Source of the DNA: Hufsiella arboris
GTDB lineage: Bacteria; Bacteroidota; Bacteroidia; Sphingobacteriales; Sphingobacteriaceae
DNA: 50,252 bases
Assembly (NCBI RefSeq): GCF_009834875.1
Contig: NZ_WVHT01000016.1
Coordinates: forward strand, 1-50,252
Reading direction: 5' to 3'
Shown: piece after piece, positions 25,746 through 48,811 of the stretch
How positions within the stretch are numbered: the stretch's first letter is position 1
Layout of the letters: every line of letters begins with the position of its first letter
Program-made: the position numbers and the translations under genes
The notes under the pieces: generated by a model
The model's database searches: none
What the model was told of the DNA's origin: nothing
Seen by the model: only the letters and a program-made list of their open reading frames with translations

Positions 25746-25804
25746 TTTAAACGGTTTTTATGTTAATCTTTTGTTTGTGTTTATAATATGATCAGCTCAG
25801 TTCG

Positions 25805-26368: not shown

Positions 26369-26399
26369 AAATAGAATTTTTGTAATTGGTTCTTATATA

Positions 26400-27656: not shown

Positions 27657-27689
27657 AATGTATTAAGAGGTTAAAAAGATCATAAAGCA

Positions 27690-29156: not shown

Positions 29157-29226
29157 GTCGAAGTATTTAGCTATCAAACGCCGGGCCTCATCCCAATTGG
29201 TATGGGACCCGGCGTTTCTGATTATT

Positions 29227-30528: not shown

Positions 30529-30547
30529 GATATGACTTCTCTGACAA

Positions 30548-33481
30548 TTAAAAATTAAACATTAGGTGGAACGCTGCTCTTTTGCTTGATGGGTATGGGT
30601 CTATGTCTACACCGGATGAAAAACCTGTCCCGAAATTGGATACCTCCGGGTCATACGATTTGTATTTCGTGATGGTAAAGTAGTTGTTAAGGGACGCGCC
30701 TAAACTTATCGACTTAACGAATGAAACAGGCAGTTTGGTAAACGAGTAGTACAAACCGATTTCGCGGAAACGCAAATAGGTCGATGTTTCAACCGTTTGC
30801 TGCGCATTGGTGCCGATCTGCATCAACTGCGTAACGCCTTTAGGCATGCCGGATGGAGTTTTCTCATCATAATCAGCAGATGTTCCGCCAAACACGTTTT
30901 GCAGGCTGGTCACGTTAACATTCTGTCCGCCTTTTTTCCAGTGAATCAAAAAGCGAAGGCTTAAATTCTTGAAGAAGGTCACTTCATTGTAGGTGCTCAT
31001 CTGGAAGGTTGGTTCGGCATCGCCCAGTATGCCTACACCCTGGCCGTTAAGTCCTACAATTTGTGTTGCTGATTTTCCTTGTTCTATCTGGTAAGTACCC
31101 AACAGCACGCCACCGGTTGAGCCCAACTGTACCGGTTGTACAGTCAGCTTGGTTACTTTCGACCGGTTGAGCCAAAAATTCACTGAGCTGTTCCACGTAA
31201 CGTTTCTTGCCTCAACGGGACGTGCGTTCAGTCCTAATTCTACGCCGTGGTTTCGCAAGTCGCCCGCATTAACCCAGTGCCGTGCAAAACCCGTCGATGC
31301 AGGCGGAGTGGTTAGCAATAAAAAGTCAGAGATGTTTTTGTTGTAATAAGTAAGCTCGAAACCGAGGCGGCCCTTTAGCAAACTAAAGTCGATACCGGTT
31401 TCAAATTCCTTTTGGCGCTCGGGTTTTATATCGGGCTGTCCCGCGTCTGTGTTAACTAACAGGCCCGGAAAGCCAGAAATATTCGATACGCCGAGCGAAG
31501 TGAATTTACTGCCATAAGCTGGTGTATTATTGGCCTCTCCATAAGCGGTGCGCAACTTTACATTCTCAAAAAAACCTTCCTTGATAAGTCCGAGGCTAGT
31601 AAGGTTTAAAGATACGGCGCCTTTTGGGTATACGTAGTATTTGGCTGTATTGCCGTTATTGCTCGATCTGTCAAAACGAAGACCGCCCGTTAAGGTGAGG
31701 GCATTAGCAATGGTGGCTTCCTCCTGTACAAAAATACCGCTGTTAAGGTATTTGGTACGCAATTGAGTAGCATTTATGGAGCCCGCCTGGTCAATATTCG
31801 ACTGACCCGAAATGATCTGCGTAGCTACGTTTAGCAAGTTGTTGTAATCGCCGGTTTCCTGCGTGATACCTGCCGAGGTATTCAGGCTAAGGTTAGCAGT
31901 TGGAGTGTAAGTATTTACCAATGATAAAATGAAATTCGTGCTCATGTTCTTGGTAAATCCCTGCGCCGATGCACCTTTGTTTATTGCCTCGAATTGCAGG
32001 ACGCTTGGAAACAATAGCTTGGTTTCAAGATTATAAAAATCAAACCCGCCCCGGCCGATAAACCTGGTTAAGCTATGAGCGCTTTTTTGTAAGGACACTT
32101 CCAGGTTCGCGCCGGTTATCAACCTGTTCACATCCTCGTTGTTTTCCATTAAAGCGATTGTTTGTAAAGGATTCGATGCCGCAAATGGATTGGCGGGGTA
32201 GTTGCCGTTTGCGTCAGGATGCAGCTGCGCGAAGCCCGGAGTAGATGATAATGCAATTCCAGTTGTGACACCGGCATTATCATTGCCAAAAATACCTCTG
32301 TCTGAAGATGAATGAATATAATTAGTACTCACCCCTAATTTTATGTGATCGGATATTTTATGATCGACGTTCAGGCGAACATTGGTGTTGTTATAACCGG
32401 TACGGTCCACCAGTCCGTCTTCGTCTTTATGGCCAACGGAGAAGTAAAAACCAGTTTTTTCGTTAGCGCCATTTACACTTAAAACAGTATTTGATGTAAA
32501 AGGAGTGTTGTCATAGATTTCCTTTTCATAATCATAGATTTCTCCTTTCGCATTGGCATCGTTGAACATCTTGGTTAATGTTGCGGGATCACCCGGCAGG
32601 GTCGCCGCGGTTTCGGCAGTAAATTGCCTTACGCCCAGTAATTTTATAGGCCTTAAAAAACCAAGATCCTGTGACAGTGTAACGGCAGTTTTGCCTTGTT
32701 TGCCGCGTTTGGTAGTGATGATAATTACACCACCAGCAGCTTTCGAACCATAAATAGCCGCCGCTGACGCTCCTTTTAATATTTCGATATCATTAATATC
32801 CTCTATTCTCAGGTCGGCAATACGGCCGGAGGGATTATCCTGGTTAGAAGTTGCTCCGCTGGTACCGGCAGACGTTACTGCGTTTAGGCCCCCGGAAGTA
32901 GCCGTATTATCTACAAAAACGCCATCTACCACATACAAGGGCTGTGTATTACCGTACACCGAAGTTACCCCGCGCAGCTTCACCGATATACCACCTCCGG
33001 GCGCACCCGAATTAGCGTTAATGTAAGCTCCGGGAATTTTGCCTTCCAGTGCGGCGTCAAAAGTTTGGGCGGGTGCCGTTCCGCTTAACTGATTTGGACC
33101 GATAACGGCAACCGCATTGGCCAGGTTTTGCCTTTTAACGGAAGTCGATAAGCCGGTTACCACGACCTCGTCGAGCCGTGATACGTCGCCGGCCAGGTTT
33201 ACATTGAGGCTTGTTTGACTGCCAACGTCAATGGTTTGTGTTTTATAACCGATCGCACTGATCGTAAGTACTGCGTTGGACGGCACATTAATCGTAAACG
33301 CACCATTGCCGTCGGTAGCCGCTGCCTGCGAACCATTTTTAACAAGGACCGTTGCGCCGGGAACCGGGATATCTTTACCAGTGGTAACTGTACCGGTAAG
33401 CGTTCTATTCTGTGCAAAAAGAATGGCAGGTATAAGGGTTAGTACCAACCAGCCTATTTTGAAGAGTAATTTATTTCTCAT
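30548..33481 (-). CDS. susC: SusC/RagA-family TonB-linked outer-membrane transporter
   Basis: A 977-residue SusC-type receptor. Signal peptide residues 1-24 (ILFAQ end), carboxypeptidase-regulatory-like domain about 27-100, the DEVVVTG TonB-box segment at 104-110, a plug domain with LRGVTS, PLYVVDGVF and DIEILKGASAAAIYGSKAAGG, then the 22-strand barrel ending in AFHLMFNF. It transports oligomeric nutrients with energy from TonB, together with the SusD partner downstream. No FecI/FecR sigma pair or hybrid two-component gene is adjacent. Confidence 0.96.
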   Translation of the reverse strand: MRNKLLFKIGWLVLTLIPAILFAQNRTLTGTVTTGKDIPVPGATVLVKNGSQAAATDGNGAFTINVPSNAVLTISAIGYKTQTIDVGSQTSLNVNLAGDVSRLDEVVVTGLSTSVKRQNLANAVAVIGPNQLSGTAPAQTFDAALEGKIPGAYINANSGAPGGGISVKLRGVTSVYGNTQPLYVVDGVFVDNTATSGGLNAVTSAGTSGATSNQDNPSGRIADLRIEDINDIEILKGASAAAIYGSKAAGGVIIITTKRGKQGKTAVTLSQDLGFLRPIKLLGVRQFTAETAATLPGDPATLTKMFNDANAKGEIYDYEKEIYDNTPFTSNTVLSVNGANEKTGFYFSVGHKDEDGLVDRTGYNNTNVRLNVDHKISDHIKLGVSTNYIHSSSDRGIFGNDNAGVTTGIALSSTPGFAQLHPDANGNYPANPFAASNPLQTIALMENNEDVNRLITGANLEVSLQKSAHSLTRFIGRGGFDFYNLETKLLFPSVLQFEAINKGASAQGFTKNMSTNFILSLVNTYTPTANLSLNTSAGITQETGDYNNLLNVATQIISGQSNIDQAGSINATQLRTKYLNSGIFVQEEATIANALTLTGGLRFDRSSNNGNTAKYYVYPKGAVSLNLTSLGLIKEGFFENVKLRTAYGEANNTPAYGSKFTSLGVSNISGFPGLLVNTDAGQPDIKPERQKEFETGIDFSLLKGRLGFELTYYNKNISDFLLLTTPPASTGFARHWVNAGDLRNHGVELGLNARPVEARNVTWNSSVNFWLNRSKVTKLTVQPVQLGSTGGVLLGTYQIEQGKSATQIVGLNGQGVGILGDAEPTFQMSTYNEVTFFKNLSLRFLIHWKKGGQNVNVTSLQNVFGGTSADYDEKTPSGMPKGVTQLMQIGTNAQQTVETSTYLRFREIGLYYSFTKLPVSFVKSISLGASLNNYFTITKYKSYDPEVSNFGTGFSSGVDIDPYPSSKRAAFHLMFNF

Positions 33482-33529
33482 TGTTGGGTTTTGGTTTAAT
33501 AGTATTAGTTAGTTAATCAGGACTAGTAA

Positions 33530-34108
33530 TTAGTGTTCTTTATGATGAGCTGCTGGCTGAGGGTTAGTTGCGATATGATTGCCGTAGCCTGTTTCGGCCA
33601 CTTGTTTCGCTCGCAGCGGGTAAGATGACATGTCCGTTGGCGTGGTGGTTGCCAGCCCGTCGACATAGCGATTAAACAGGCAAAAGGCTGCCGCGATAAG
33701 CACCGTATCATGGATATCCCGGTCGGTCGCACCTTCAGCTTTGGCTGCTTCAACCTGCTCCGTGGTTACGAATTTGCCGCCCTTTTGCACACTGCCGGCG
33801 ATGGTCAGCAAGGCTTTTAGCTTATTGGAAATAGGAGCGTTGCTAAAATCTTTTACTACTTGCTCCACCAATTCGGTGTCGCCGTTCAAATAGCAAACTG
33901 CTATGGCGGCATGCGAATGCTGGCAGTAAAAGCAGTCGTTTAAATAGGATACATAGGCGCCAATCAGCTCGCGGTCGGCCATGCTCAGGCTGTCGTTGCT
34001 GCGGAGTAGTATGTTGGCGATTTGACCTAAGGGTTCGCCAATTTCAGGACAAAAAGCCAGCAGCGAACGCATACCAGGAAGGTCCTTGTCTAAGTTGATA
34101 TGAGGCAT
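33530..34108 (-). CDS. AhpD-like peroxidase-related protein (CMD superfamily), copy 3
   Basis: A 192-residue paralogue of the two at the other end of the operon. The redox site is Cys59-x-x-Cys62 with His66 (NDCFYCQHSH), an Asp-Arg-Glu in place of Gly-Glu-Arg-Glu precedes it, and the DTVLIAAAFCLFNRYVDGL helix is retained. A Cys20 in the N-terminal region is not shared with the other copies. It lies 48 nt upstream of SusC and 68 nt after the small secreted protein gene, so it may be the first or second gene of the transcript. Confidence 0.9.
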   Translation of the reverse strand: MPHINLDKDLPGMRSLLAFCPEIGEPLGQIANILLRSNDSLSMADRELIGAYVSYLNDCFYCQHSHAAIAVCYLNGDTELVEQVVKDFSNAPISNKLKALLTIAGSVQKGGKFVTTEQVEAAKAEGATDRDIHDTVLIAAAFCLFNRYVDGLATTTPTDMSSYPLRAKQVAETGYGNHIATNPQPAAHHKEH

Positions 34109-34977: not shown

Positions 34978-35142
34978 ACTCGATCATTCTTTCGGTTAAT
35001 TTAACTTTATATCATCAATATCAATTTTAAATTAATACTCTTTTCGTTTAGAATTTCACCAGCAAAAGCCCGCCGTTGCCAGTACAAAAGGTTTAGTAAG
35101 TGCGCTGCCTAATACAGCATACTTCGCTTATTGTTAGGGCCT

Positions 35143-38100
35143 ATGGGTATTTATTTACGCAAAGTAACTTTTGATCAGGCTTATAGGGTGCCTTACCGCT
35201 ATAAGCCAAGCTCCGCATTCATACTGGCTTTCTTTTGCCTGCTTTTCAGCTTCCAGGCATCAGCCGCTGTTATTGTAACCCTTACCCCGAAGAATGGCAC
35301 CTGTCCCGGTAACGGTTCCATAACTGTAACAACCAGCGGAACCACTGGCTCGGTACTGTATGCTATAAAGCGGAATGGAGATGCTGATTTTTCGCCACAG
35401 CAGGCAAGTAATGTATTTGCAAATCTTGCTTCCGGTAATTATATAGTTGCTGTTTATGATGAGTCAGGAATATCATCGTCAAGTCCGGCAATTCTAAGCA
35501 ATAAAGCCTATACGCCGGTAACGGTAAAGTCAATCACGCCAGGAAACCGCATTGTTACAGCCTGCAACGATGACGCAAGTATCGATCTGGAAATAAGCGG
35601 CGGAAATGCACCCTATACCTATCACCTGAAGAATGGCCCGAGTACACCTGCTGACATTGTTTCTTCCGATCAGAAAGCGGCGTTCCTTCAGTTGACGAGC
35701 GGCACCTATGCGGTGGATATTACGGATGCCTGCGGCAATACGATTACTGCCAATAATATTACGGTCACTTCCAAATACAATCTTCAGGGTATAACATTAA
35801 GCAGTTTTGAGATAGCGGGAACAACGCAAAGCAGTACCGGTTGCGATCTGAGCTTTTACTTTTCCGTTGCCAACGTAACGCTGAAGGATATCAGTGGAAA
35901 CATAATTTTTGAACGAAACGGGAAAAATATGCCAGGTGGATACCCGGTAGATATACGGGTAGAATATCCATCCGGCTCCGGGATATACACGCCATGGGCC
36001 AATATTTTTACGACATTTAACATACCTGGCGATCAATATTTTCCGGCAAACGGCACATACAGGGTTCAGTTCCGGCATCCTTGCGATCCGGGCGCTGTTC
36101 TTACCTCGCCTGAGTATAATTTTATATATCCCTATTCCTCCATCGGCGGTTATTGTGCGCCTTCAGTTGTTCGAAATTTTAGCAGCTATAACTGCGGCCC
36201 TGTCGACATACGGATTAAACATACAACCAGTACAGCTGAGCGGACCTTTACCTGGAATGATAACAATAATTCATACCCGCTGAACCTTAGCGGTCTTCCA
36301 GCAGGAACTTATAATGTGTTTATAACAACTGAAAATGGAACCTATCAGAGCAATAACATAAGTACAACCACAGCGACTACTGTAAGCATGGCTTTTATTT
36401 ACAATTATATCAGTACGCTGGGCTGCGATTTCACAACCGGGGGCATCAGATCTTATGGTATTCCGGTAGATAATACGGTTCCGATTACTTATTCCATTGT
36501 TTCAGGGCCGGTATCCAGGCCTTCGGTTACCAGCACTGCAGATAAGAACCCGATCTGGAACGATCTGCCCGGAGGAATTTACAGGATAGGTTTTAAGTTC
36601 GGTGACTGTAATTATTCAGAAAGAGATTTTACGTTAACGATGCCTTTCGGCGGATTTAATGCCGGCGAAGTTTCTTATGTGCCGGGCAGCGCGTGCGGAA
36701 AATATAAGCTTACAGGGAAGGGTTGGTACCTGGCACCGGATGGAGGTATATCTAACAAAACTGATACGTATGGTGTGCGGATATTTGACAGCTCAAATAA
36801 AAATATAGGAACTGTTCAAAATATACCGAACAATACAGATTATACTTCCACACTTGAAGTTGGCCCCGGAACTTATAAATTAACTTACATGAATTCCGTC
36901 AATTCAAAGGAGGTTTGTCATTACCTGGAACGTACTGTTACCATTCCTCCTTATCAGCCTGTATCGGTGAATGTTGGGAAATCAGGCGGTGTAACCTGCG
37001 ATAACGGTGTCGGTGAGCTGCATATTGAAGCACAGGGTGGAAGCGGTAAAGCGCTTACTTATCGGATCAAGCCCAAGGGAGCCTCTGATGCTAGTTATAC
37101 TGCTTACCAGTCGTCGCCCGATTTTCCGGGCAGCGCGGCAGGTGAATACACCGTCCAGATTGCCGATGCCTGTGGATACTCCACTACCCAAAATTTAACC
37201 CTGATACGAACCACTTCTGTTTCGAGTGTAAGTATATCAGGCGCTGATACTGTCGGGAGAACCGGTGTTGCCTGCCAGGGAAATACAGTCGGGCTAACGC
37301 TGAATATCATCGGAAGATCGTCCAACGTTCAATGGACAAAACCCAACGGAAGCAGAGTCGCTAACGCTATTTTAACGATTGCAAACTTCTCAGCAGCAGA
37401 TGAAGGCAGGTATAACGTGTCTTACGAATCGGGAGGTTGCGTCCGCAGTGATTTCGTCACACTTTCGCTAAAGCCAAAACCTGCCCTTACCACTACACTT
37501 ACTCCGCCGGATATATGCAGCGGTTCTACCTTTATTTATACACCGCAAAGTTCTATTCCGGGATCTATAATTAAGTGGACACGCGCGGCCGTTCCAGGAA
37601 TCGATCAGCCTGCAAGCAGCGGGACCGATGGTGTCAATGAAGTTTTAATCAATTCGACAGCCGGTGCGCTAAACGTAATCTATCAATTTACCACATCTTA
37701 CAATGGCTGCGAAAATGTGCAGCAAGTCGTGGTAAAAGTTAACAGGAAAGCTGTTGCTGCTGACATCTTATTACCGGATGCATCAATCTGCACGGGCGCT
37801 ACCGCTGTTTTAAATGCAACTGCTGCCGGTGTTGTAAATCCCGTATTTACCTGGTACAGCGATGCCGCATTGAATACCCCAATTTTTACAGGTCCATCAT
37901 TTACAACACCCACTCTTAATACAACCACACAATATTATCTAACCGTTAGCGGCGATGGTGTATGTGCGAACGATGCCGCGGGCGCGCGGATAGTTACAGT
38001 AAATGTTAACCGGAAAGCAGTTGCTGCTGATATCCAGATTAATAACCCGTCGATTTGTTCCGGCAGTTCTGCTAACCTGGTTCCCTCCGCCACAATTGCT

Positions 38101-41100
38101 AACGCACGTTTTAAATGGTATGCGGATGCGGCGTTAACACAGCTTTTGAGTGACCAGGATTCTCTTCAAACTCCGGTTCTGTGGACGAGCAAAACATACT
38201 ATGCAACTGTAACTGGGACCGGTGTTTGCGAGAATGAGCCGGGCAGTGCAAAGGCGGTGACTGTAGTAGTGAAGCCGAAATCAGTAAGCAGCGACATTGT
38301 GGTCAATAACGCAACGATTTGCAGCGGCGCCAAAGCGACATTGACTGCGAACAGCCAAGTCGCCGGTGCGGCGTTTGAATGGTACAGTGACGCCGGATTA
38401 ACGAATTTCCTGAGCGAGGGTTCCGTCTACACCACCGGAACATTATTCTCTACTACTACTGTTTATGTCACCGTAAAGGGATCGGCGCAATGCGCTAACG
38501 CACCGGACTCAGCAAAAGCTGTTCAGGTCATAGTTAACAGAAGAGGACAGGCCTCCGACATTTCGGGAACTAACGATGCACTGGTCTGCAGCGGTGACGC
38601 CACTACTCTGCAATTCAGTAGTACAATTCCTAACGCTGCACTTAAAATTTATGATACCCCGCAGATGAATACTGCACTGGCGACAGGAAACGGTAGTCTT
38701 ACTTATAACACTCCGGTATTAAATGAAAGTACCACGTATTACGTAACCGTGAGTGGTGATAATGTTTGCGAAAATTTAAGTGCGAACGCTAAGCAAATTA
38801 CCGTTACGGTAAATAAAAGGGCCGCGGCCGCTGATCTGAACGTTGAAGGTGCACGCCTTAGCTGTACCAACGAAACGGCAACCCTCACAGCTTCGAGCAC
38901 GTTAACAGATCCTCATTTCAAATGGTACTCGGATGCCTCGCTGCAAACCCTTGTAGGTGGCGAAGCAGCTTTTACTACACCTCCCTTAGCACAATCCACT
39001 ACTTATTATGTCACTGTTAGGGGCGCCGGTGTTTGCGAAAGTACGCCTCAAACTGCAAAAGCGGTTACCGTAGAAGTTAGCGCGGCGGGAGCTTCACCAA
39101 CCGTGATCATTCCGGGCACAACCATTTGCCAGGGCGAGGCAACCATTATTTCGGCAAGCAGCAATTTGAAAAACCCGGTTTTTACGTGGTATGCTGATGC
39201 TGGCCATACGGATCCGCCGCTGTATACCGGCAAAGTTTTCAGCACACCAAACCTGAACAACACGGCGACGTACTATGTAGTGGTGACCGGAGACGGCGTG
39301 TGTGATAATGTATCTGCTCCGACAAGGATTCTCGTAGAAAAAGAGGTGACAATAACAGTCAGTCGCCGGGCAGCTGCCGCTGATATAACTGTTCCGGCGG
39401 CTACCGTCTGCAGCGGCGAAGAGGCAACTCTTTCGGCAAGCAGCACAACAGTCGGTTCTCCCGTTTTCAGTTGGTATGCCGATCCTCAACTGAATACCTT
39501 ATTAAGTTCCGGTCCCACTTTTGAAACCGGCGCGTTAACTTCCAACACAACGTATTATGTAACCGTACAGGGTGCAGGCGTTTGCGAGAATCCCGTACCG
39601 ACGGCATTGCCTGTAACCGTTACCGTAAATCGACATGCAGTTACTGCGGACATCCTGGCGCCGAATGTCGCTGTCTGTTCGGGGTCATCAGCTACGCTAA
39701 ATGCTATAACAACAACGGTAACCAACCCGGTATTTAACTGGTATACAAATAGCAATCTTGATCCAGCTTCTCTAGTATTCACTGGTCCGGATTTTACAAC
39801 TCCTGTTCTTACTGGTACCACTTATTATTATGTGACAGTTAGCGGCGATGGTGTTTGTGCGAACGTGGTTCCCAACGTGAAGCAGGTGCAGGTAACCGTT
39901 AATGCCATTCCGAACCTGGTGGTAAATGCGGTAACAAAAATTAACTGCAATAGCTTTTCCGATGTTCCGCCCACATTTAACCTGACAGACCCGGGTTTAA
40001 CTGCAGGAAGTGACGAGGGTATATTGTCTGTTTGGCGAAACCCCGACGGCACCGGTATTGTACCTATGCCGCATGATGTTTTTATCCCCGGAACTTATTA
40101 TATCAAGCTAACGAACGATAAAGGTTGCAGTGTCATCAAACCGGTCGTTGTGCCTGCTATCGTGAAACCCAAACTGGTTATTACTAATCCTGCTGCAGCC
40201 TGCACAGGTGAAGCAGTAAACTTAACACTTCCTGCCATCATCGCCGGAAGCGATCCGAATCTTGCATTCTCTTATTTCTCAGATCCGGCGCTGCTGAATC
40301 AAACTTCTAATCCATCAGGAGTTTCCGCGGCAGGCATTTATTATATCCAGGCGAAAGCAAATGATGGAAGCGGTTGCCCGATCGTGAAGCCGGTGAACGT
40401 TTCATTTAATGAAGTGCCTATATTAACCATTAATCAGCCGGCAGCCGTTTGCGCTCCGCAAGCTGTTGATCTTACCGCCGCCACCATTACATCAGGAAGC
40501 GATGCCGGTACGAAAACTTACTGGCTGGATGGTACAGCCAGCACAACACCTTTAACAAATCCCGCCGCTGTTACCCAAAGCGGAATTTATTATATCAAGT
40601 TGACGAATGCCAGCGGTTGTTCGGACGTTCAGTCTGTTACCGTTACTATTCACCCGCAGCCTGTTTTGGTTATTACCAACCCAGCGCCGGTGTGTTCGCC
40701 TCAAACAATTAATCTAACCGCCGCCGGAGTAACAGCAGGCAGTAGCGGTGGCTCGGCATTTCACTATTGGCTTGATGCCGCCTCGACCCAGCCTCTGGCT
40801 AGTCCGCAAGCCGTGACAGCCAGCGGAACTTATTACATCTCATACCAGAACGAAGAAGGCTGCCAGGTAGTGAAACCAGTTTCGGTAGTCGTCACACCGG
40901 GAACGACGGCCGCTGATATTACTTTAGCCGACGCAAGTATTTGTTCCGGCACTGTAGCTACTTTAACCGCAAGCAGTACTTCGGTTACTGCTCCCGTTTT
41001 CAGGTGGTATACCGATGCTTCCCTCACCAGCCTCAGGTTTACAGGAGCTACTTTTACCACCGGCGCCTTAAACGCAGATACGACCTATTTTGTAACAGTA

Positions 41101-44100
41101 AGCGGAACTGGAGTTTGTGAAACACCGGCAGGTGAAGCGAAAGCAGTGAATGTCACCGTGCAGCGCAGGGCCATCAATGCGGATATAACATCGGATGGAA
41201 AAGCGATTTGCTCCGGAAGCAGCGTTCAGCTGGACGCCTCGGCTGCAGGAATAAACAGTCCTATATTCAAGTGGTACGCCGACGCCGCTTTAACACAGCC
41301 GTTAGCGACGGGAGCTGATTTTACTACACCTGTGTTATGGGCGAACAGTACTTATTATGTAACCGTTAACGGCACTGGTGTTTGTGAGAACAGTCCAAAT
41401 ACGGCAAAAGAAGTTGTTGTTACTGTTAACCGCAAAGCTTTGCCGGCAGATATTATTGCCAATGATGTGCAGACTTGCAAAGGTTCAACAGCTTCGATCT
41501 CAGCGAGCAGCACCATCCCCGGAGCCGTATTCTCCTGGTATAGCGATGCGGCACTCACGAATTTTTTAAGTGAAGGACCGGTTTATACTACCAATGCTTT
41601 GATTGCTAACACTACTTATTATGTGACGGTAAGGGGGACGGGAATTTGTAATAATGCGCCTGATTCTGCGAAAGCGGTTCAGGTAGTAGTCAATCGTCAC
41701 GGGATTGCCGCCGATATCACTGGCAGCGGCAACGCAACTGTTTGTAACGGAGATCCGGTATCGCTTAATTTCAGTACCCTTATTCCTGGTGCGACAATAA
41801 AATTATATAGCGATGCCAATCTAACTACACTGCTAAGCAGCGCCACTGGCACACTTGCTTACACAACACCTCCTTTAGCGGCAAGTACAAGTTATTATGT
41901 AACGGTAAGCGGTGACGGAGTGTGTGAAAATCTTAAACCCGATACGAAACAGGTTAACATCACGGTAAACGACCGGGCAACGACGGCTGATTTGACCGTT
42001 ACGGATGCCAGCCTAACCTGTACCAACGAGCCGGCGACTTTGTCTGCTTCCAGTACGCTGGAAAATCCACAATTCAATTGGTATTCGGATGCCGGATTAC
42101 AAACTAAGGCAGGCACGGGCGCTACGTTTATTACGCCGCCGCTGGCCCAAACTACAACCTATTATGTAACGGTAAGCGGTACCCGTGTTTGTGAAAGCAG
42201 TGCGGCTGCTGCAAAACCTGTAACTGTGAATATTAATGCTTCGACGTCCACACCAACGCTCATCATTCCCGGCGCTGTTATCTGCGAGGGTGAGGCGGCA
42301 ACCTTATCGGCAGCAAGTAACCTGAAGAACCCCGTTTATAACTGGTATGGTGATGCCGCTCATACAGCGCCTGCATTGTTTACCGGGAAAACAATTACCA
42401 CGCCGGCGTTGAATGCGACAACCACTTATTACGTGGTAGCTGTCGGTGATGGAATATGCGACCAGGTAGGCGGACCTGCGGCGCTTCAGGTGGAGCAAAC
42501 GGTAACAGTAACCGTTAATAAGCACGCAGTTGCAACTGATATCGTTGCTGATGATCAAACCATTTGCAGCGGGAGCCGGGTTACCTTGGCGGCCAGTAGC
42601 AGCACGGTTAATGCGGCTGAATTTAAATGGTACCAGGATGCCGCCTTAACACAATACCTGGCGACAGGGCCAACATATACTACTGCTTCACTGACCGCCA
42701 CAACTACTTACTATGTCACCGCGGGTTCAGCCGGAGTTTGTGAAAACAAGCCAAACGAAGCGAAAGTCGTTACAGTGACGGTCAGCCGTAGTGCGACAAC
42801 ATCAGATATTAATCTGGCTGACGTTACTACTTGTCCCGGTACGCCTGCCACACTTGTTGCACAAACAAGCACAGTCAGCAACCCGGTATTTAACTGGTAT
42901 CAGAGCAACGATTTGGCAACACCCATCTTTACCGGACCTGGCTTTACTGCTCCGGCTTTGCTTTCATCCGCCACATATTTCGTAACTGTATCGGGCGATG
43001 GTGTATGCGCGAATAAACCCGGCGATGCCAGATCTGTGGTGGTATCGGTAAACAAGCAATCTGTCGCTGATGATATTGAAGTTGCAGCTGATGCCGTTTG
43101 TGCGGGATCGGCAGCGGAGCTAAGAGCAAGCAGCAATACGATAACAGCGCCGGTTTTTAAATGGTATGCCGATACCTTGTTGTCCACTCTGTTATTTACC
43201 GGTCCGACGTATACTACTGCTCCGCTTACTGCCGAAACTACTTTTTACGTAACGGTCAGCGGTACCAATGTATGTGAAACGTCAGCGGATAATGCGAAAC
43301 CTGTTACTGTTAAATTGAACAGGCTTGCGACAGCATCAGACATTCTTGCAGCCGATGCGAATATTTGTAACGGCAGCAGTACGCTTCTTGCGGTTAGTAC
43401 AAATGATGTTTTAGACCCGGAATTTAACTGGTACGCCGATGCCGCTTTAACTCAATACCTGCATACCGGACCTGATTATCTGACGCCGGTTCTGACAGCT
43501 CCAACCGACTATTATGTAACACTGAAAGGTGACAGTGTATGCGCCAATGCCGTTGGTACCGCCAAAATTATACATGCAGATGTTAACCGCCTCGCCACAT
43601 CCGCTGATATCAGCTCCGCGGATCAGGTTATCTGCGCCGGAAGCACGGCTACTTTGCAGGCTTCATCTACGACGGTTGCCAACCCGGTTTTCAACTGGTA
43701 TGCCGATGCAGGGTTGAGTCAGTACCTGGGAACCGGTGCGCAGTTCGCGACAACGGCCTTAAATTATTCAACTATTTACTATGTGACGGTTAGCGGCAGC
43801 GGCGTTTGCGAAAATGCAGCCAATAATGCCAAAGCGGTTAACGTAACCGTGAATCCCCTCGCAACTGCGTCAGATATAGCGATCACTGATGTTATTACCT
43901 GTTCGGGAGATGCACTGACTCTAACTGCAACAAGCAGTAAGATCCCCAATCCTGAGTTTAAATGGTACGCGGACGAAGCCTTGACATCGTTGCTCTTTAC
44001 CGGTTCAGCTTATCAAACACCTGCCTTAACTTCCAGTACCAGTTACTTCGTCACCGTAAGCGGCACAGGTTTCTGCGCAAACACGCCGCGAACAGCCAAG

Positions 44101-47100
44101 AAAGTTACGGTGACAGTTCAGGCTCGTACAGCATCGACTGATCTAGTTGTAAACGATCAGGCAATATGCGCCGGTTCCTTCGCTATTTTAAACGCATCCA
44201 GTGTTACTATTAATAGCCCGGTATTTAGATGGTATGCGGATAATTCATTAAGCAACTTGCTGCACACCGGTGATATGTATCAAACCCCGGCACTCAACAC
44301 CGACGCTACTTATTACGTCACCGTCAGCGCACCGGGCCTTTGTGAGGCTGCTGCCGGCAGCGCTAAGCCGGTACATGTGAGCATTAAGCGAAATGCTGTT
44401 GCGAGTGACATAACAGCGGCCAACCAGGTTATATGTTATAATACCGCAACTAAAGTAACGGCTTCAAGCGGTACGGTTCAATCTCCTGTATTCAGGTGGT
44501 ATGCCGATGCTGCGTTAACTTCCTTGATATATATTGGAACAGAACTGACCACACCAAATTTACGCGATACGAAAACGTATTACGTAACTGTAAGCGGGAA
44601 CAGTGTTTGTGAAAATGTTCCGGGCAGCTCCTTCCAGGTGTCGGTTGTTGTTAACCGCAGGGCAATACCTGCTGATATCACAGCGAGCGATCAACAGGCT
44701 TGTATCGGAAACAATGTGGTATTAAGTGCATCGAGTGCGATTCCGGGCGCCCAGATAAAATGGTATTCCGATTCAAAGTTGACCAACTACCTGGCGAGCG
44801 GTCCGGAATACAGCACAGCCGAGCTAACCTCGACTTCCACTTTTTATGTGACGGTAAGCGGGAATAATGTATGTGAAAATGCACCGGACGAAGCGAAAGC
44901 TGTAAAAGTAAATGTTAACCGTTTCGGCCGGCCAACCGATATCAGCGGCAGCGGAGATGCGGTTGTTTGCAGGGGAGAGGTGAGCACCATCAATCTTACT
45001 ACAACTGTGGGCAATCCAACTATTCGGTTATACAATGACTCAAGGCTCACATCCCTGGTGGCGAGCGGAAGCAGCATTCAATACATTACACCTGCACTTA
45101 ACTCTAACGCCATATTTTACGCAACCGTTAGCGGCGATGGCATTTGCGAAAACCTGCCCCTAACAGCAAAAGTAATTGAGCTGAAGGTAAACGACGTTGC
45201 GCAACAATCAGATTTAAGCGTTTCCGATCTCAGCATCACCTGTACTAACGAACCAGCAACGCTAACCGCTTCGAGCACGTTAACAAACCCGGTATTCAAG
45301 TGGTACGGTGACGCGAACCTGCAAACAGCAGTGGGCAGCGGCGAATCATTTACCACACCACCATTGTCTCAAAACACTACCTACTACGTTACGGTAAGAG
45401 GGGACGGGGTTTGCGAAAGTTCGCCTTCTGCCGCGAAACCCGTTACCGTGCAGGTGAGCGCCTCTTCAACCGAGCCAACACTACGACTTAGTAATGTTAT
45501 CATCTGCGCCGGCGAAGCCGCCGAATTGTCTGCGGCAAGCAATCTGAAAAACCCGGTTTATAAATGGTATGCTGATGCCGCCCATACCCAACTTGTTTAC
45601 ACAGGGAGTGTTTACAGCGCGCCTGCACTGACTAACACGACTATATACTATATCGTTGCGACAGGAGATGGTGTTTGCGGAAGTGTTTCCGCGCCAGCTA
45701 ATCTCAGCCTTAACGGAACAGCTACAGTTACCGTTAACCGCAAAGGTATGCCTGCCGACATTTCCGTTAACGGCCAGGAAATCTGCAGTGGAGGCGTGGC
45801 AACATTAACTGCAACAAGTACAACGATCGCGGAAGCCGAATTTAAATGGTATGCCGATGCCGGGCTTGCCAACTACCTGGCGACCGGGCCAACTTATACG
45901 ACTGGCTCTTTAACCAGCAATACCACTTACTATGTAACCGTTAACGCAAGCGGTGTTTGCGAAAGTCTAAATGGACAACCTGTTACGGTAAATGTGATAC
46001 GGAATGCTGTGCCATCGGATATTATTGCTAAGGACACCATCGTTTGTTACGGAAACATAGTAACACTTCATGCAACTACCACTACGATTAGCAACCCGGT
46101 GTTTAAATGGTATGCCGATGCGCGTTTAACGCAATTACTGTTTACCGGGCCTGATTATCCGACATTGCCACTGCTGGTCCGCTCTACAACTTTTTACGTA
46201 ACCGTTCAGGGTAATGGTGTTTGTGAGAACAGGGCGTTTACAGCTAACGAGGTAACAGTTACAGTTACACCGTTCCCTGGAAACCTAAACCAGGTCGCTG
46301 TGTCGGCTTCAAACTTCATTGCTACGCTTGGTTCAACAGTAACGCTTAGTGTTCCACCTTCAGCGAATCTTTACCTGTGGGATAAGGACCGGCAGATTCT
46401 TCCCGGCGTAACCGGCAATAGTTATGTTATTTCTTCTTTCAAAAAATCCGATGCGGGAAGGTACCTGGTTGCCTCTATCAACAAAGTGCCTTGCGATAAT
46501 GTGGTTCGATTAGATACCTTCCTGGTTTATCTGCGTGATTTCTCAACATGGAAAACCGTTACAGATGCAAACGGTGATGGAAAGGCGCAACCTGGAGAAA
46601 TACTCACCTATACCATCCATGTAAAAAATACTGGAACCATCAAGCTTAACACATTAACTGTATCGGATCCGCTTCCGGCTATGACGGCGTACGTAAACGG
46701 CGGCACATTCAGCAATAACCAGGTAACGTTTACAGACGCAGGTTTGAACGTTGACGAAGAACGTACATACATTTTCAGCGTTAGAGCATCGGATGCGCCG
46801 ACTCGAGCAAGCGCAATAGCCAACCAGGCAATTGTTAAAGCGGATAGTCTTGAAAAGCCGACGGGCTGCGGTGAAGCCAATCCCAATGCAAATTGTGAAA
46901 CAGAAATTCCGGTCGATGTTATTTCGGAAGTCAAGCTGATTACCTGGAAAACGGTAAGCGATGCCAGCGGCGATGGCAAGGCACAACGGAGCGAAGTGCT
47001 GACTTACACCGTGCATATACGCAATACTGGTCTGGCATCAATCAACTCAATTGCCGTTTCCGATCCGTTACCAGTAGGAACAGCTTACGTTTCGGGTGGT

Positions 47101-47940
47101 ACGTTGAATGGAAATAATATACAGTTCCTGGTTCCGGGACCCTTGGCTCCTAATGCGGAAACATCCGTAAACTTTAGCGTGAAAGTAAACGACGATGTCA
47201 GTATTCCAACGATCAGTAACCAGGCATTGGTAACTGTGGACACACAGACTTTTCCAACCGGTACGAAATCGGATGGAAGTAACCAGGATCCGGTAATTAC
47301 GCCAGTGCAAAATCTGGCAGACCTGAGCATCGTTAAAACTCAGGCAGCAGAGAAAATTTACATTGGTGATCAGTTCGAATACCAATTAACTGTAACTAAT
47401 AACGGACCAGACGACGCAAGAAATGTGACGATAACGGATGTTCTGCCTTTGCAGGTAGATTATATTCCCCTGCCAACAAGCCCCCGCCAGGTCAATTACG
47501 ATCCGGCAACACGTACGCTGATCTGGATACTGGGCACACTGGGATCGGGCGAAAGTACTTCAGCCGGCATCACGGTGCAAGCGCGACTACAGGGAACAGC
47601 AATGAATACTGCTACCATAAGCACAACTGACCAGGATCCGGAAATCTCCAATAATTCATCAACGGTACAAAAGGAGATATCCGGCATGTTCATTCCAAAT
47701 GTTATCACGCCAAATGGGGATAACCGGAACGATAGGTTTGTAGTTAAAGGCGTAGATCCGACTCAGGGAATGGCAATTAGAATATATAACCGCTGGGGAA
47801 ATGAAGTGTATCACCAGGATAACTATAAAAATGACTGGGACGGCTCGCAGCTGAATGAAGGAACTTATTTCTATTTACTGACGATCGGTACCGGGCAAAA
47901 TGCGAAGGTGTATAAAGGGTGGATACAATTGCTGAGGTAA
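35143..47940 (+). CDS. Giant secreted Ig-like repeat protein with T9SS type B sorting domain
   Basis: A 4265-residue protein from the ATG at 35143 (a TTG at 35131 is in frame). The signal peptide ends in FQASA-A near residue 43. Residues 45-865 contain SprB-like and other beta-sandwich units (GGNAPYTYHLKNG, GEYTVQIADACG). Then 28 Ig-like domains of 85-95 residues follow, each with (A/S)DI...ICSG...ATLxASS, NPVFxWYADAxLT and TTYYVTVSGxGVCEN; four different domains (KPKLVITNPAAACTG type) lie between the 8th and 9th. The tail has three DUF11-like units and the T9SS signal (IPNVITPNGDNRNDRF, IYNRWGNEVY, WDGSQLNEGTYFY). It is predicted to be a surface adhesin or gliding-type stalk. Its sorting domain is nearly the same as that of the 3309-residue protein, so both probably use one T9SS. 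Confidence 0.95.
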   Translation: MGIYLRKVTFDQAYRVPYRYKPSSAFILAFFCLLFSFQASAAVIVTLTPKNGTCPGNGSITVTTSGTTGSVLYAIKRNGDADFSPQQASNVFANLASGNYIVAVYDESGISSSSPAILSNKAYTPVTVKSITPGNRIVTACNDDASIDLEISGGNAPYTYHLKNGPSTPADIVSSDQKAAFLQLTSGTYAVDITDACGNTITANNITVTSKYNLQGITLSSFEIAGTTQSSTGCDLSFYFSVANVTLKDISGNIIFERNGKNMPGGYPVDIRVEYPSGSGIYTPWANIFTTFNIPGDQYFPANGTYRVQFRHPCDPGAVLTSPEYNFIYPYSSIGGYCAPSVVRNFSSYNCGPVDIRIKHTTSTAERTFTWNDNNNSYPLNLSGLPAGTYNVFITTENGTYQSNNISTTTATTVSMAFIYNYISTLGCDFTTGGIRSYGIPVDNTVPITYSIVSGPVSRPSVTSTADKNPIWNDLPGGIYRIGFKFGDCNYSERDFTLTMPFGGFNAGEVSYVPGSACGKYKLTGKGWYLAPDGGISNKTDTYGVRIFDSSNKNIGTVQNIPNNTDYTSTLEVGPGTYKLTYMNSVNSKEVCHYLERTVTIPPYQPVSVNVGKSGGVTCDNGVGELHIEAQGGSGKALTYRIKPKGASDASYTAYQSSPDFPGSAAGEYTVQIADACGYSTTQNLTLIRTTSVSSVSISGADTVGRTGVACQGNTVGLTLNIIGRSSNVQWTKPNGSRVANAILTIANFSAADEGRYNVSYESGGCVRSDFVTLSLKPKPALTTTLTPPDICSGSTFIYTPQSSIPGSIIKWTRAAVPGIDQPASSGTDGVNEVLINSTAGALNVIYQFTTSYNGCENVQQVVVKVNRKAVAADILLPDASICTGATAVLNATAAGVVNPVFTWYSDAALNTPIFTGPSFTTPTLNTTTQYYLTVSGDGVCANDAAGARIVTVNVNRKAVAADIQINNPSICSGSSANLVPSATIANARFKWYADAALTQLLSDQDSLQTPVLWTSKTYYATVTGTGVCENEPGSAKAVTVVVKPKSVSSDIVVNNATICSGAKATLTANSQVAGAAFEWYSDAGLTNFLSEGSVYTTGTLFSTTTVYVTVKGSAQCANAPDSAKAVQVIVNRRGQASDISGTNDALVCSGDATTLQFSSTIPNAALKIYDTPQMNTALATGNGSLTYNTPVLNESTTYYVTVSGDNVCENLSANAKQITVTVNKRAAAADLNVEGARLSCTNETATLTASSTLTDPHFKWYSDASLQTLVGGEAAFTTPPLAQSTTYYVTVRGAGVCESTPQTAKAVTVEVSAAGASPTVIIPGTTICQGEATIISASSNLKNPVFTWYADAGHTDPPLYTGKVFSTPNLNNTATYYVVVTGDGVCDNVSAPTRILVEKEVTITVSRRAAAADITVPAATVCSGEEATLSASSTTVGSPVFSWYADPQLNTLLSSGPTFETGALTSNTTYYVTVQGAGVCENPVPTALPVTVTVNRHAVTADILAPNVAVCSGSSATLNAITTTVTNPVFNWYTNSNLDPASLVFTGPDFTTPVLTGTTYYYVTVSGDGVCANVVPNVKQVQVTVNAIPNLVVNAVTKINCNSFSDVPPTFNLTDPGLTAGSDEGILSVWRNPDGTGIVPMPHDVFIPGTYYIKLTNDKGCSVIKPVVVPAIVKPKLVITNPAAACTGEAVNLTLPAIIAGSDPNLAFSYFSDPALLNQTSNPSGVSAAGIYYIQAKANDGSGCPIVKPVNVSFNEVPILTINQPAAVCAPQAVDLTAATITSGSDAGTKTYWLDGTASTTPLTNPAAVTQSGIYYIKLTNASGCSDVQSVTVTIHPQPVLVITNPAPVCSPQTINLTAAGVTAGSSGGSAFHYWLDAASTQPLASPQAVTASGTYYISYQNEEGCQVVKPVSVVVTPGTTAADITLADASICSGTVATLTASSTSVTAPVFRWYTDASLTSLRFTGATFTTGALNADTTYFVTVSGTGVCETPAGEAKAVNVTVQRRAINADITSDGKAICSGSSVQLDASAAGINSPIFKWYADAALTQPLATGADFTTPVLWANSTYYVTVNGTGVCENSPNTAKEVVVTVNRKALPADIIANDVQTCKGSTASISASSTIPGAVFSWYSDAALTNFLSEGPVYTTNALIANTTYYVTVRGTGICNNAPDSAKAVQVVVNRHGIAADITGSGNATVCNGDPVSLNFSTLIPGATIKLYSDANLTTLLSSATGTLAYTTPPLAASTSYYVTVSGDGVCENLKPDTKQVNITVNDRATTADLTVTDASLTCTNEPATLSASSTLENPQFNWYSDAGLQTKAGTGATFITPPLAQTTTYYVTVSGTRVCESSAAAAKPVTVNINASTSTPTLIIPGAVICEGEAATLSAASNLKNPVYNWYGDAAHTAPALFTGKTITTPALNATTTYYVVAVGDGICDQVGGPAALQVEQTVTVTVNKHAVATDIVADDQTICSGSRVTLAASSSTVNAAEFKWYQDAALTQYLATGPTYTTASLTATTTYYVTAGSAGVCENKPNEAKVVTVTVSRSATTSDINLADVTTCPGTPATLVAQTSTVSNPVFNWYQSNDLATPIFTGPGFTAPALLSSATYFVTVSGDGVCANKPGDARSVVVSVNKQSVADDIEVAADAVCAGSAAELRASSNTITAPVFKWYADTLLSTLLFTGPTYTTAPLTAETTFYVTVSGTNVCETSADNAKPVTVKLNRLATASDILAADANICNGSSTLLAVSTNDVLDPEFNWYADAALTQYLHTGPDYLTPVLTAPTDYYVTLKGDSVCANAVGTAKIIHADVNRLATSADISSADQVICAGSTATLQASSTTVANPVFNWYADAGLSQYLGTGAQFATTALNYSTIYYVTVSGSGVCENAANNAKAVNVTVNPLATASDIAITDVITCSGDALTLTATSSKIPNPEFKWYADEALTSLLFTGSAYQTPALTSSTSYFVTVSGTGFCANTPRTAKKVTVTVQARTASTDLVVNDQAICAGSFAILNASSVTINSPVFRWYADNSLSNLLHTGDMYQTPALNTDATYYVTVSAPGLCEAAAGSAKPVHVSIKRNAVASDITAANQVICYNTATKVTASSGTVQSPVFRWYADAALTSLIYIGTELTTPNLRDTKTYYVTVSGNSVCENVPGSSFQVSVVVNRRAIPADITASDQQACIGNNVVLSASSAIPGAQIKWYSDSKLTNYLASGPEYSTAELTSTSTFYVTVSGNNVCENAPDEAKAVKVNVNRFGRPTDISGSGDAVVCRGEVSTINLTTTVGNPTIRLYNDSRLTSLVASGSSIQYITPALNSNAIFYATVSGDGICENLPLTAKVIELKVNDVAQQSDLSVSDLSITCTNEPATLTASSTLTNPVFKWYGDANLQTAVGSGESFTTPPLSQNTTYYVTVRGDGVCESSPSAAKPVTVQVSASSTEPTLRLSNVIICAGEAAELSAASNLKNPVYKWYADAAHTQLVYTGSVYSAPALTNTTIYYIVATGDGVCGSVSAPANLSLNGTATVTVNRKGMPADISVNGQEICSGGVATLTATSTTIAEAEFKWYADAGLANYLATGPTYTTGSLTSNTTYYVTVNASGVCESLNGQPVTVNVIRNAVPSDIIAKDTIVCYGNIVTLHATTTTISNPVFKWYADARLTQLLFTGPDYPTLPLLVRSTTFYVTVQGNGVCENRAFTANEVTVTVTPFPGNLNQVAVSASNFIATLGSTVTLSVPPSANLYLWDKDRQILPGVTGNSYVISSFKKSDAGRYLVASINKVPCDNVVRLDTFLVYLRDFSTWKTVTDANGDGKAQPGEILTYTIHVKNTGTIKLNTLTVSDPLPAMTAYVNGGTFSNNQVTFTDAGLNVDEERTYIFSVRASDAPTRASAIANQAIVKADSLEKPTGCGEANPNANCETEIPVDVISEVKLITWKTVSDASGDGKAQRSEVLTYTVHIRNTGLASINSIAVSDPLPVGTAYVSGGTLNGNNIQFLVPGPLAPNAETSVNFSVKVNDDVSIPTISNQALVTVDTQTFPTGTKSDGSNQDPVITPVQNLADLSIVKTQAAEKIYIGDQFEYQLTVTNNGPDDARNVTITDVLPLQVDYIPLPTSPRQVNYDPATRTLIWILGTLGSGESTSAGITVQARLQGTAMNTATISTTDQDPEISNNSSTVQKEISGMFIPNVITPNGDNRNDRFVVKGVDPTQGMAIRIYNRWGNEVYHQDNYKNDWDGSQLNEGTYFYLLTIGTGQNAKVYKGWIQLLR
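37741..39906 (+). repeat. Ig super-repeat unit 1 (domains 1-8)
   Basis: Eight Ig-like domains in a fixed order. Marker motifs are a TPVLW in the second, FLSEG in the third, a SCTNETATL in the fifth and ASSNLKNPVF in the sixth. The unit is 2166 bp. Confidence 0.8.
40894..43054 (+). repeat. Ig super-repeat unit 2 (domains 9-16)
   Basis: The same eight-domain order as unit 1 with TPVLW, FLSEG, TCTNEPATL and AASNLKNPVY at matching positions. The start lies 3153 bp from that of unit 1, and the SNLKNPV marker is displaced by 3155 bp, showing collinear duplication. Confidence 0.8.
44119..46272 (+). repeat. Ig super-repeat unit 3 (domains 21-28)
   Basis: Third copy of the eight-domain order, with TCTNEPATL and AASNLKNPVY in place. 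It is displaced from unit 2 by 3225 bp at its start and 3223 bp at the SNLKNPV marker. Four extra Ig domains (17-20) lie between units 2 and 3. Domains are diverged in DNA, so the duplications are not recent. Confidence 0.78.
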
Positions 47941-47988: not shown

Positions 47989-48789
47989 CTATATTCCAGA
48001 CACAAATGCCGCCATACTTTCGAACACAACCAGCTGCAACCGATCGACCATCCTTAACGCGGCATTTACCTGGTCAGCGCTAACAATCCAATCGCCGGCG
48101 TAACGCCCTTTTAAATAAGCTTGATCCAGTAGTTTTACTAATTCCCAGTCAATCGCTAAAGAAACGTACAGCGACGGCAGGTAATATCCGGCGCAGCGCA
48201 GCAATATACGTATCTCATGCGAACGTTTCGCCCTTTCGCAAAAAGAAGAGATCACCGCCCGCAAAGCCAGCTCGGCAGATTGGTGCAGCATGAACATAGT
48301 AAGGGGCAGGTTACTTACATTGTTAAAATAAAACCAAGCGCCTTCCGAAAAACTGATAGAACGCTCAAATGCATGGTCAAAGCTACGCCTGGCTTTTAGC
48401 AAAACAAGCTCCTTTAGTTCAGTTGAGAAATCCGGCAAGGGTATTAATCCGGTATCGAATAAGAGATTCTTTTGGATACATACAAATGAATAAAATGGAT
48501 GCCCGCTTCGCAACTGGCGAATCAGCCAATCCGAACGATGCAGCATACAACTCAAAGCCGGCTGGCCGATTATGGCAAAATCTAAATAAGGCTGGAGCTC
48601 ATCGAAAGTAAGCGTGCAATTATCCGGCAAGACGATTATAAGGAGAGTCTGTTCCGGCTCATCAATAAGTTGCTGTTTAATCCGGAAGATCTTGTCCGGT
48701 CTTAGCGTTTCAATAATCAGGCGGATGAAGGATGGTGGTCCAGCAATTTGCGCGTTTATCGGTTTTAGTGAAGTGTTTTGAAGTTTCAT
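47989..48789 (-). CDS. HEPN-domain protein with degenerate nucleotidyltransferase-like N-terminus
   Basis: A 266-residue protein from the ATG at 48789 (a GTG at 48804 adds five residues). The C-terminal half is HEPN-like: a long helix (RRSFDHAFERSISFSEGAWFYF), then LHQSAELALRAVISSFCERAKRSHEIRILL with an Arg-x4-His pair as in the RNase-type motif, and a final DQAYLKGRYAGDW helix. The N-terminal half has an alternating alpha/beta pattern (LLIIVLPDNC) like the MNT nucleotidyltransferase partner, but without a recognisable GSxxR-DxD site. HEPN proteins often act in toxin-antitoxin or defence systems. It diverges from an XRE regulator, with a perfect palindrome between them. The N-terminal call is inference. 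Confidence 0.75.
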   Translation of the reverse strand: MKLQNTSLKPINAQIAGPPSFIRLIIETLRPDKIFRIKQQLIDEPEQTLLIIVLPDNCTLTFDELQPYLDFAIIGQPALSCMLHRSDWLIRQLRSGHPFYSFVCIQKNLLFDTGLIPLPDFSTELKELVLLKARRSFDHAFERSISFSEGAWFYFNNVSNLPLTMFMLHQSAELALRAVISSFCERAKRSHEIRILLRCAGYYLPSLYVSLAIDWELVKLLDQAYLKGRYAGDWIVSADQVNAALRMVDRLQLVVFESMAAFVSGI

Positions 48790-48811
48790 AAAAGAAGATT
48801 TCACGATTTAA

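Follow-up and report, generated by a model that had tools for sequence, protein, structure and literature searches.

Ancient block copying and rank-specific conservation in a giant Ig_7 protein of Hufsiella arboris

Introduction

Whether a very long protein of look-alike domains has grown one domain at a time, or by the copying of whole blocks, is the question raised by a giant open reading frame (ORF) of Hufsiella arboris (Sphingobacteriaceae). The ORF lies on a stretch of 50,252 nucleotides (RefSeq assembly GCF_009834875.1, contig NZ_WVHT01000016.1, positions 1 to 50,252), referred to here as the window, which is part of a 4.8 Mb genome. A sequence-only reading of the window had reported 28 immunoglobulin (Ig)-like repeats in the 4265-residue product and had proposed that domains 1–8, 9–16 and 21–28 (here blocks A, B and C) recur in the same order, so that each domain has a counterpart of the same position, or ‘rank’, in the other two blocks. 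According to a survey of repeat proteins, multi-domain copying is their usual mode of growth, with units of up to nine domains, and copying of single domains is seen most often in the Ig and epidermal growth factor (EGF) families (PMC1553488). A non-exhaustive search of the open literature found nothing on the giant ORF, nor any account of Ig_7 proteins with a period of eight domains.

Results

Growth of the array by copying of a multi-domain block

The count of 28 repeats was confirmed: from the ATG at 35143 the frame encodes 28 Ig_7 domains, delimited here at an aromatic anchor, and each possesses one such anchor and exactly two cysteines, which may form a disulfide. Same-rank pairs had a mean identity of 52.6%, compared with 42.1% for other pairs and 42.3% for neighbours, and random relabelling gave 42.8% for same-rank identity (sd 1.1, maximum 46.9 in 2000 shuffles). 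The register first proposed was the best of 64 cyclic registers (runner-up 46.9), and the top three diagonals of the domain matrix fell at lags 8, 12 and 20, the strongest being reached by 0/300 shuffles. Profiles built with one block left out placed 20/24 domains at their own rank, missing only domains 1, 21, 22 and 28. In a maximum-likelihood tree of the domains, all groups together required 12 changes, compared with 21.0 for shuffled labels (0/200 as low). A tree in which neighbours cluster, rather than ranks, had been named as evidence against block growth. Approximately unbiased (AU) tests did not reject monophyly for any rank examined (p 0.12, 0.30, 0.075 and 0.31 for ranks 1, 2, 7 and 8; ranks 3–6, already together in the best tree, needed no test), and rejected neighbour triples in 4/5 cases tested. 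Same-rank identity, register, tree and AU tests agree that the array grew by copying of a multi-domain block.

Spacing of the anchors follows the same pattern. Successive distances were 88, 88, 89, 92, 88, 95 and 89 residues in block A, 89, 88, 89, 92, 88, 95 and 89 in block B, and 89, 88, 89, 91, 88, 94 and 87 in block C, with longer units at the same ranks in all three blocks; spacing was identical across the blocks at 3/7 steps, a result equalled in 271/20000 shuffles. Some details of the proposal needed adjustment. The block lengths of 2166, 2161 and 2154 bp stood for the last only, recutting giving those in Table 1 (2161 is not a multiple of 3), and marker offsets reported as 3155 and 3223 are 3156 and 3222 in the DNA, close to but not exactly the values given. 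Two of three marker motifs recur as described (CTNE in domains 5, 13 and 25; SNLKNPV in domains 6, 14 and 26); FLSEG, said to mark every block, is found only in domains 3 and 11 and is missing from domain 23.

Support differs between ranks

The super-repeat is real at its core, and support for it is uneven between ranks. Clades were formed by rank 4 (support 99/97), rank 5 (100/98) and rank 6 (100/99), and it is here that the same-rank clustering across blocks that defines a block super-repeat is seen. Rank 3 came together in the tree without support, although domains 3 and 11 paired at 98/95. Ranks 1, 2, 7 and 8 were not clades in the best tree: for ranks 2 and 8 the supported pairs were only between blocks A and B (2+10, 90/85; 8+16, 90/84), and at rank 1 domains 9 and 21 grouped with the extra domain 17 (87/86), apart from domain 1, which was nearest to domains 8 and 16 (55% and 52%) and had its best profile score as rank 8. 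By identity alone, shuffles as high were found in 77/4000 cases for rank 3, 0/4000 for rank 5, 3/4000 for rank 6 and 14/4000 for rank 7, the highest likeness being that of rank 5 (65.5%), followed at some distance by rank 6 (56.2%). When ranks 4–6 were set aside, the remaining five pooled still had 50.5% identity versus 46.4% shuffled (1/4000), and ranks 1, 2, 7 and 8 had 49.9% versus 46.4% (18/4000).

Profiles recognised ranks 3–7 in all three blocks, some of them narrowly. Domain by domain, block C can be recognised at ranks 3–7 alone. We conclude that ranks 3–7 at least were copied as a block, with three copies standing; ranks 2–8 were probably copied as a block in A and B. The proposed eight-domain extent thus holds for the core and is not borne out at its edges, namely rank 1 and domains 1, 21, 22 and 28.

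Between the blocks lie further domains. The region between A and B, described as four different domains, does contain four units by eye, but these are at least partly divergent Ig_7, two stretches matching that family (50.7 bits for the region). The proposal that blocks were later split by insertion is not supported as stated. Extra domains 17–20 may have arisen by local duplication of a rank-8/rank-1 pair. The four score best as ranks 1, 8, 1 and 8 (domain 17 by 127 versus 126 bits for rank 7), and even/odd was the best of 10 splits of domains 16–21 (difference 4.87 versus 1.44 for the next), a split conceived after the scores were seen. Mean identity speaks against pair copying, as domain 17 is by this measure closest to rank 7 and domain 18 to rank 2, and the origin of domains 17–20 as pair copies is suggestive only. 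That they represent a fourth, half-lost block was considered and rejected, since none of the four scores best as any of ranks 2–7.

Age of the copies and rank-specific conservation

At fourfold silent sites same-rank pairs were 31.2% identical (634 sites) and other pairs 30.2% (7232 sites); even rank 5 (36.8%) and rank 6 (27.8%) were near the level of unrelated pairs. Silent sites are saturated, so the copying is ancient, and both an assembly duplicate, an error that the sequence-only reading had named as a refuting condition, and recent conversion are excluded.

Conservation since then has been specific to certain ranks. Rank 6 had 15 columns common to all three copies and rare elsewhere (‘rank-only’ columns) and rank 5 had 12, including a gap shared by its three copies; the counts were 4 for rank 4 and 7 for rank 3. 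Triples drawn at random averaged 0.59, with a 99th percentile of 3. The maximum among them, 15, is as large as the rank-6 count, perhaps because the rank-6 triple itself was drawn. The persistence of such residues at ranks 3–6 indicates that these ranks are under a constraint of their own, strongest at ranks 5 and 6. It had also been suggested that, as order was kept over such divergence, particular neighbours or a defined rod length matter. This does not follow, because order is inherited in block copying and its preservation is no sign of selection on order or length; conservation of residues is a distinct matter from constraint on either.

Relatives and their periods

A profile of ranks 5–6 was run against 399 family genomes (own included) taken from a larger group, mostly with at most eight candidates scored in each, and no domain of the rank 5–6 type was recognised in the 398 others. 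The three blocks score 343–350 bits but are the profile's own rows, so that the gap to other sequences is inflated; the best other pair in the same protein makes a fairer yardstick, and its 152 bits are matched or narrowly surpassed by the best relatives (best match outside the own genome, 165 bits). Identity over ranks 5–6 is 59–61% between blocks and at most 46% in named relatives. The rank 4 type was looked for among 873 relatives' domains only, and in a tree including the 33 closest of these, ranks 4, 5 and 6 remain clades (Shimodaira–Hasegawa-like approximate likelihood ratio test 98, 97 and 99). As relatives' domains stay outside the rank clades, the block types belong to this lineage, as far as it has been sampled. 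Pedobacter and Nubsella are the sources of the best named relatives' Ig_7 proteins, one record being labelled Flavobacteriaceae, and another genus of the same family (g13) has giant Ig_7 proteins in many species.

Higher-order periods were surveyed in 35 giant Ig_7 arrays of relatives. The input comprised 18 stretches and 19/24 loci (L059, L066, L077, L079 and L082 being left out), less L121 and L122, which had fewer than eight domains kept or no frame of 800 residues; the window's own domains served as detection model with only hits above 8 bits kept, and periods are counted in detected domains. A significant period of at least two domains was seen in 22 arrays: two domains in 4, three in 16, four in 1 and five in 1. 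A further 9 showed likeness of neighbours, 4 showed nothing at 0.01, and a period of eight was seen in 0/35. Many of the arrays are surely orthologous, so the 22/35 are not independent cases. In an earlier run with 300 shuffles the top period of L076 and of L112 was different, and some arrays, L061, L065 and L127 among them, fell on the opposite side of 0.01.

One array, L120 (G007:C1:1633000-1652999), has a five-domain period and a domain pair of 100% identity, the product either of a recent block duplication or of an assembly effect; block copying seems to go on in giant Ig_7 proteins. Domain pairs of 95–100% identity were also present in the Ig_7 arrays L068, L073, L078, L080, L113 and L119.

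Structure and predicted secretion of the protein

From its N-terminus the protein has a hydrophobic, signal-like stretch (the signal peptide was judged by eye only), an N-terminal region, 28 + 4 Ig-like domains, DUF11 repeats and a C-terminal CHU_C domain. Pfam places Ig_7 (PF19081) in 29 tandem stretches (1108 bits, above the curated cut-off), DUF11 in three, and CHU_C at the end with 87.1 bits against a cut-off of 27; the NCBIfam model TIGR04131, the sorting domain of type B of the type IX secretion system (T9SS), matches with 46.4 bits against 35. The full frame (35131-47940, + strand) opens at a TTG 12 nt upstream of the ATG. In the first 700 residues the best Pfam stretch was only a SprB repeat at 145–169, and an adhesive domain of a new type could lie there. 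The first 867 residues had no match covering most of their length in 79 other genomes; short matches were present in 32/79, the best of them at the Ig-like end. Of the two parts of a fibrillar adhesin, a stalk and an adhesive domain, the tandem stalk domains are present according to Pfam. In Bacteroidetes, CHU_C-bearing fibrillar adhesins have been recorded (PMC8286594).

A model of domains 4–6 has beta strands in all three domains (mean predicted local distance difference test score 89.2, predicted template modelling score 0.61). The weak part of the model lies at residues 260–266, within the rank 6 extension. Strands cross both domain joints, as they might in a stiff rod. The Foldseek list for this model opened with seven fragments of GhpA, the Aureispira sp. 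CCB-QB1 grappling-hook protein (PDB 9flp plus seven further entries), after which came titin Ig81–Ig83 and another GhpA fragment; superposition was loose (template modelling score 0.41–0.49, root-mean-square deviation 12–23 Å). GhpA, said in a review to be secreted by the T9SS (PMC11205867), also ranked first among PDB matches, both by sequence (E 1e-103) and by profile (2.9e-142). The last 96 residues match its C-terminus (E 6e-17), and an Ig_7-like shaft with a CHU_C end is common to both proteins. A phmmer search with the last 558 residues found no PDB match. One with the first 863 found no GhpA match at E up to 1, so that homology to GhpA does not extend along the whole chain to the N-terminal part.

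Of T9SS genes, SprA and PorP/SprF alone were searched for, and the own genome contains SprA (2646 bits) and 10 PorP/SprF genes above cut-off, none of these on the window's contig (C8). Two PorP/SprF genes lie less than 400 bases from other Ig_7 matches (C34, C54). No match to the sheath protein VipB of the type VI secretion system (T6SS; PF05943) was found in the own genome, while an E. coli control did match, and none to TssC (PF17541), a model that matches 2/60 genomes, the own genome being among the 60. As neither a T6SS sheath gene nor an N-terminal GhpA match was found, we class the product as a predicted T9SS type B giant Ig_7 surface fibre, not as a grappling hook.

Features of the window

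Coordinates are collected in Table 1. The window holds a second giant T9SS-type protein (14166-24095, +; 3309 residues, 20 DUF11 stretches, CHU_C end); in Litorilinea aerophila a protein with 49 DUF11 domains is described as forming hook-like filaments (PMC13319060). Between the two giant genes (25206-34108, −) there is a run encoding a TonB receptor, SusD, an esterase, a major facilitator superfamily (MFS) transporter and three carboxymuconolactone-decarboxylase-like proteins; for the TonB receptor, 1e-100 was passed in only 1/30 other genomes, at 46% identity. For a HEPN-domain protein encoded downstream (47989-48804, −), paralogues lie on C14 (69%) and C7 (42%) of the own genome; a search of one congener genome gave no match. 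An Rfam search gave no match at gathering scores.

Table 1. Position of the giant ORF, its blocks and the domains between them.
Feature	Position in window	Strand	Remarks
Giant ORF	35143..47940	+	4265 aa from ATG; domains by Pfam, NCBIfam
Block A, domains 1–8	37732..39894	+	2163 nt; domain 1 resembles rank 8, domains 2–8 assigned to own rank
Ranks 4–6, block A	38527..39351	+	clade-forming ranks; modelled
Four divergent Ig-like units between A and B	39895..40884	+	two Ig_7 stretches; four units by eye
Block B, domains 9–16	40885..43041	+	2157 nt; all eight assigned to own rank
Ranks 4–6, block B	41683..42507	+	clade-forming ranks
Extra domains 17–20	43042..44109	+	possible alternation like ranks 1 and 8; weak
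Block C, domains 21–28	44110..46263	+	2154 nt; 23–27 assigned to ranks 3–7, 21, 22 and 28 not
Ranks 4–6, block C	44908..45726	+	clade-forming ranks
CHU_C / T9SS type B sorting domain	47692..47937	+	Pfam, NCBIfam; GhpA C-terminus match

Discussion

We consider it probable that the rod of this protein grew by ancient block copying and that certain ranks have been specifically conserved since. The array would have arisen when a run of some eight domains, of which five (ranks 3–7) are firmly established, was copied in frame long ago, twice or more; between blocks B and C a pair of domains may also have been copied locally. Divergence to about half identity would have followed, during which distinctive residues and indels were retained at some ranks, most of all 5 and 6 and next 3 and 4; such ranks would be the likeliest contact surfaces, presented three times along the rod, as in titin.

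A number of results weigh against this account. Bootstrap support in the domain tree is not fully settled; rank 7 is split there (3 changes), with domain 7 joining rank 5 (85/80), and domain 23 owes its place at rank 3 to 125 bits versus 123 for rank 7. Ranks 1, 2, 4 and 8 are each non-significant by identity (960/4000 for rank 4), rank 1 shows no excess at all (46.8 versus 46.4 shuffled), and ranks 1, 2, 7 and 8 have 1–2 rank-only columns, like random triples. Over ranks 1–8, A and B are the nearest blocks in 87% of column resamplings and B and C in 13%, and over ranks 3–7 B–C is ahead in 60%. In the one congener there was no match at 1e-20 and no orthologue was found; nor is any known adhesive domain named among the Pfam matches.

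The copied block might itself have comprised just four or five core domains (ranks 3–7), ranks 1, 2 and 8 being generic units that spread by local copying and fell into register by coincidence. We regard this as possible but clearly the less probable course: it would account for the score of domain 1 as rank 8, for the failure of domains 21, 22 and 28 to be assigned to their own rank and for the non-significance of ranks 1, 2 and 8 taken singly, and local copying may indeed occur among the extra domains if they alternate like ranks 8 and 1, but it sits poorly with the supported pairs 2+10 and 8+16, the grouping of domains 9, 17 and 21, the excess identity of ranks 1, 2, 7 and 8 when pooled, and AU tests that reject the monophyly of no rank (p 0.075–0.31). 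Alternatively, same-rank likeness could have been kept or made by gene conversion between blocks, not by inheritance. That ranks 5 and 6 are the most alike is what conversion would give, yet their silent sites stand near the unrelated level, so that no conversion was recent enough to leave silent traces; this argument is limited to recent events and old conversion is possible, but we think conversion very unlikely as the source of the likeness.

What the block-copied rod does is a separate matter. Membership of a grappling-hook appendage like that of Aureispira, with several chains bundled in a shaft, would fit GhpA's first place by sequence and profile, its 8/9 first Foldseek rows and its CHU_C end, GhpA being described as a heptamer of a 5,898-residue chain (PMC13319060). 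But no other giant Ig_7 protein occurs among the PDB matches, and GhpA's first place therefore says little; the loose superposition, the unmatched N-terminal 863 residues and the failure of two models to find a T6SS sheath gene also make a hook improbable. We would also give little credence to the bolder idea that the eight-domain block is a functional ruler, in which a partner-binding face at ranks 5–6 would occur three times, at spacings of 1,052 and 1,074 residues, and make the protein a scaffold with a regular period; such a scaffold might belong to a GhpA-like appendage of several chains, in a bacterium that has no T6SS. The protein would more probably be a rod-shaped surface fibre, perhaps acting as a fibrillar adhesin or other appendage.

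The protein resembles several known systems in part. Titin A-band super-repeats, made of Ig and fibronectin type III (FnIII) domains, are ascribed to recursive block duplication (PMC10665226); there too groups of Ig-like domains were copied as blocks, domains at the same position are more alike, and conservation is focused on two super-repeat positions. Titin differs in being eukaryotic, in mixing Ig with FnIII and in having a known binding partner for one position, and we claim homology no further than the Ig-like fold. With GhpA the giant ORF shares giant size, tandem Ig_7-like domains, a CHU_C end and the best sequence and fold match, but differs in length, in GhpA's heptameric state and in its own unmatched N-terminal part. 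The giant Ig_7 proteins of Pedobacter, Nubsella, Chitinophaga and other relatives belong to the same domain family, and 22/35 of the arrays surveyed have higher-order periods, although their strongest are of two to five detected domains rather than eight. The giant Ig-like adhesin of Mobiluncus mulieris, as described, is likewise a giant bacterial surface protein (a location predicted here) with a long Ig-like stalk, but is cell-wall anchored (LPxTG) and has ester and isopeptide cross-links (PMC10619420), whereas the giant ORF has a T9SS-type end and two conserved cysteines per domain.

Growth by block copying is thus already known, and the interest of this case lies in its age, its long period and its pointer to ranks 5 and 6. 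By comparison with the survey of repeat proteins cited above, an Ig-like array has here been copied as a long block and not domain by domain. It provides a bacterial case, outside the muscle proteins, in which a long Ig-like block was copied, silent sites have lost their likeness and some positions have kept it. To judge from the survey of relatives, giant Ig_7 surface proteins of Bacteroidota often have higher-order periods, whose length varies by lineage, and the ranks that were kept point to which of 28 look-alike domains to probe for binding.

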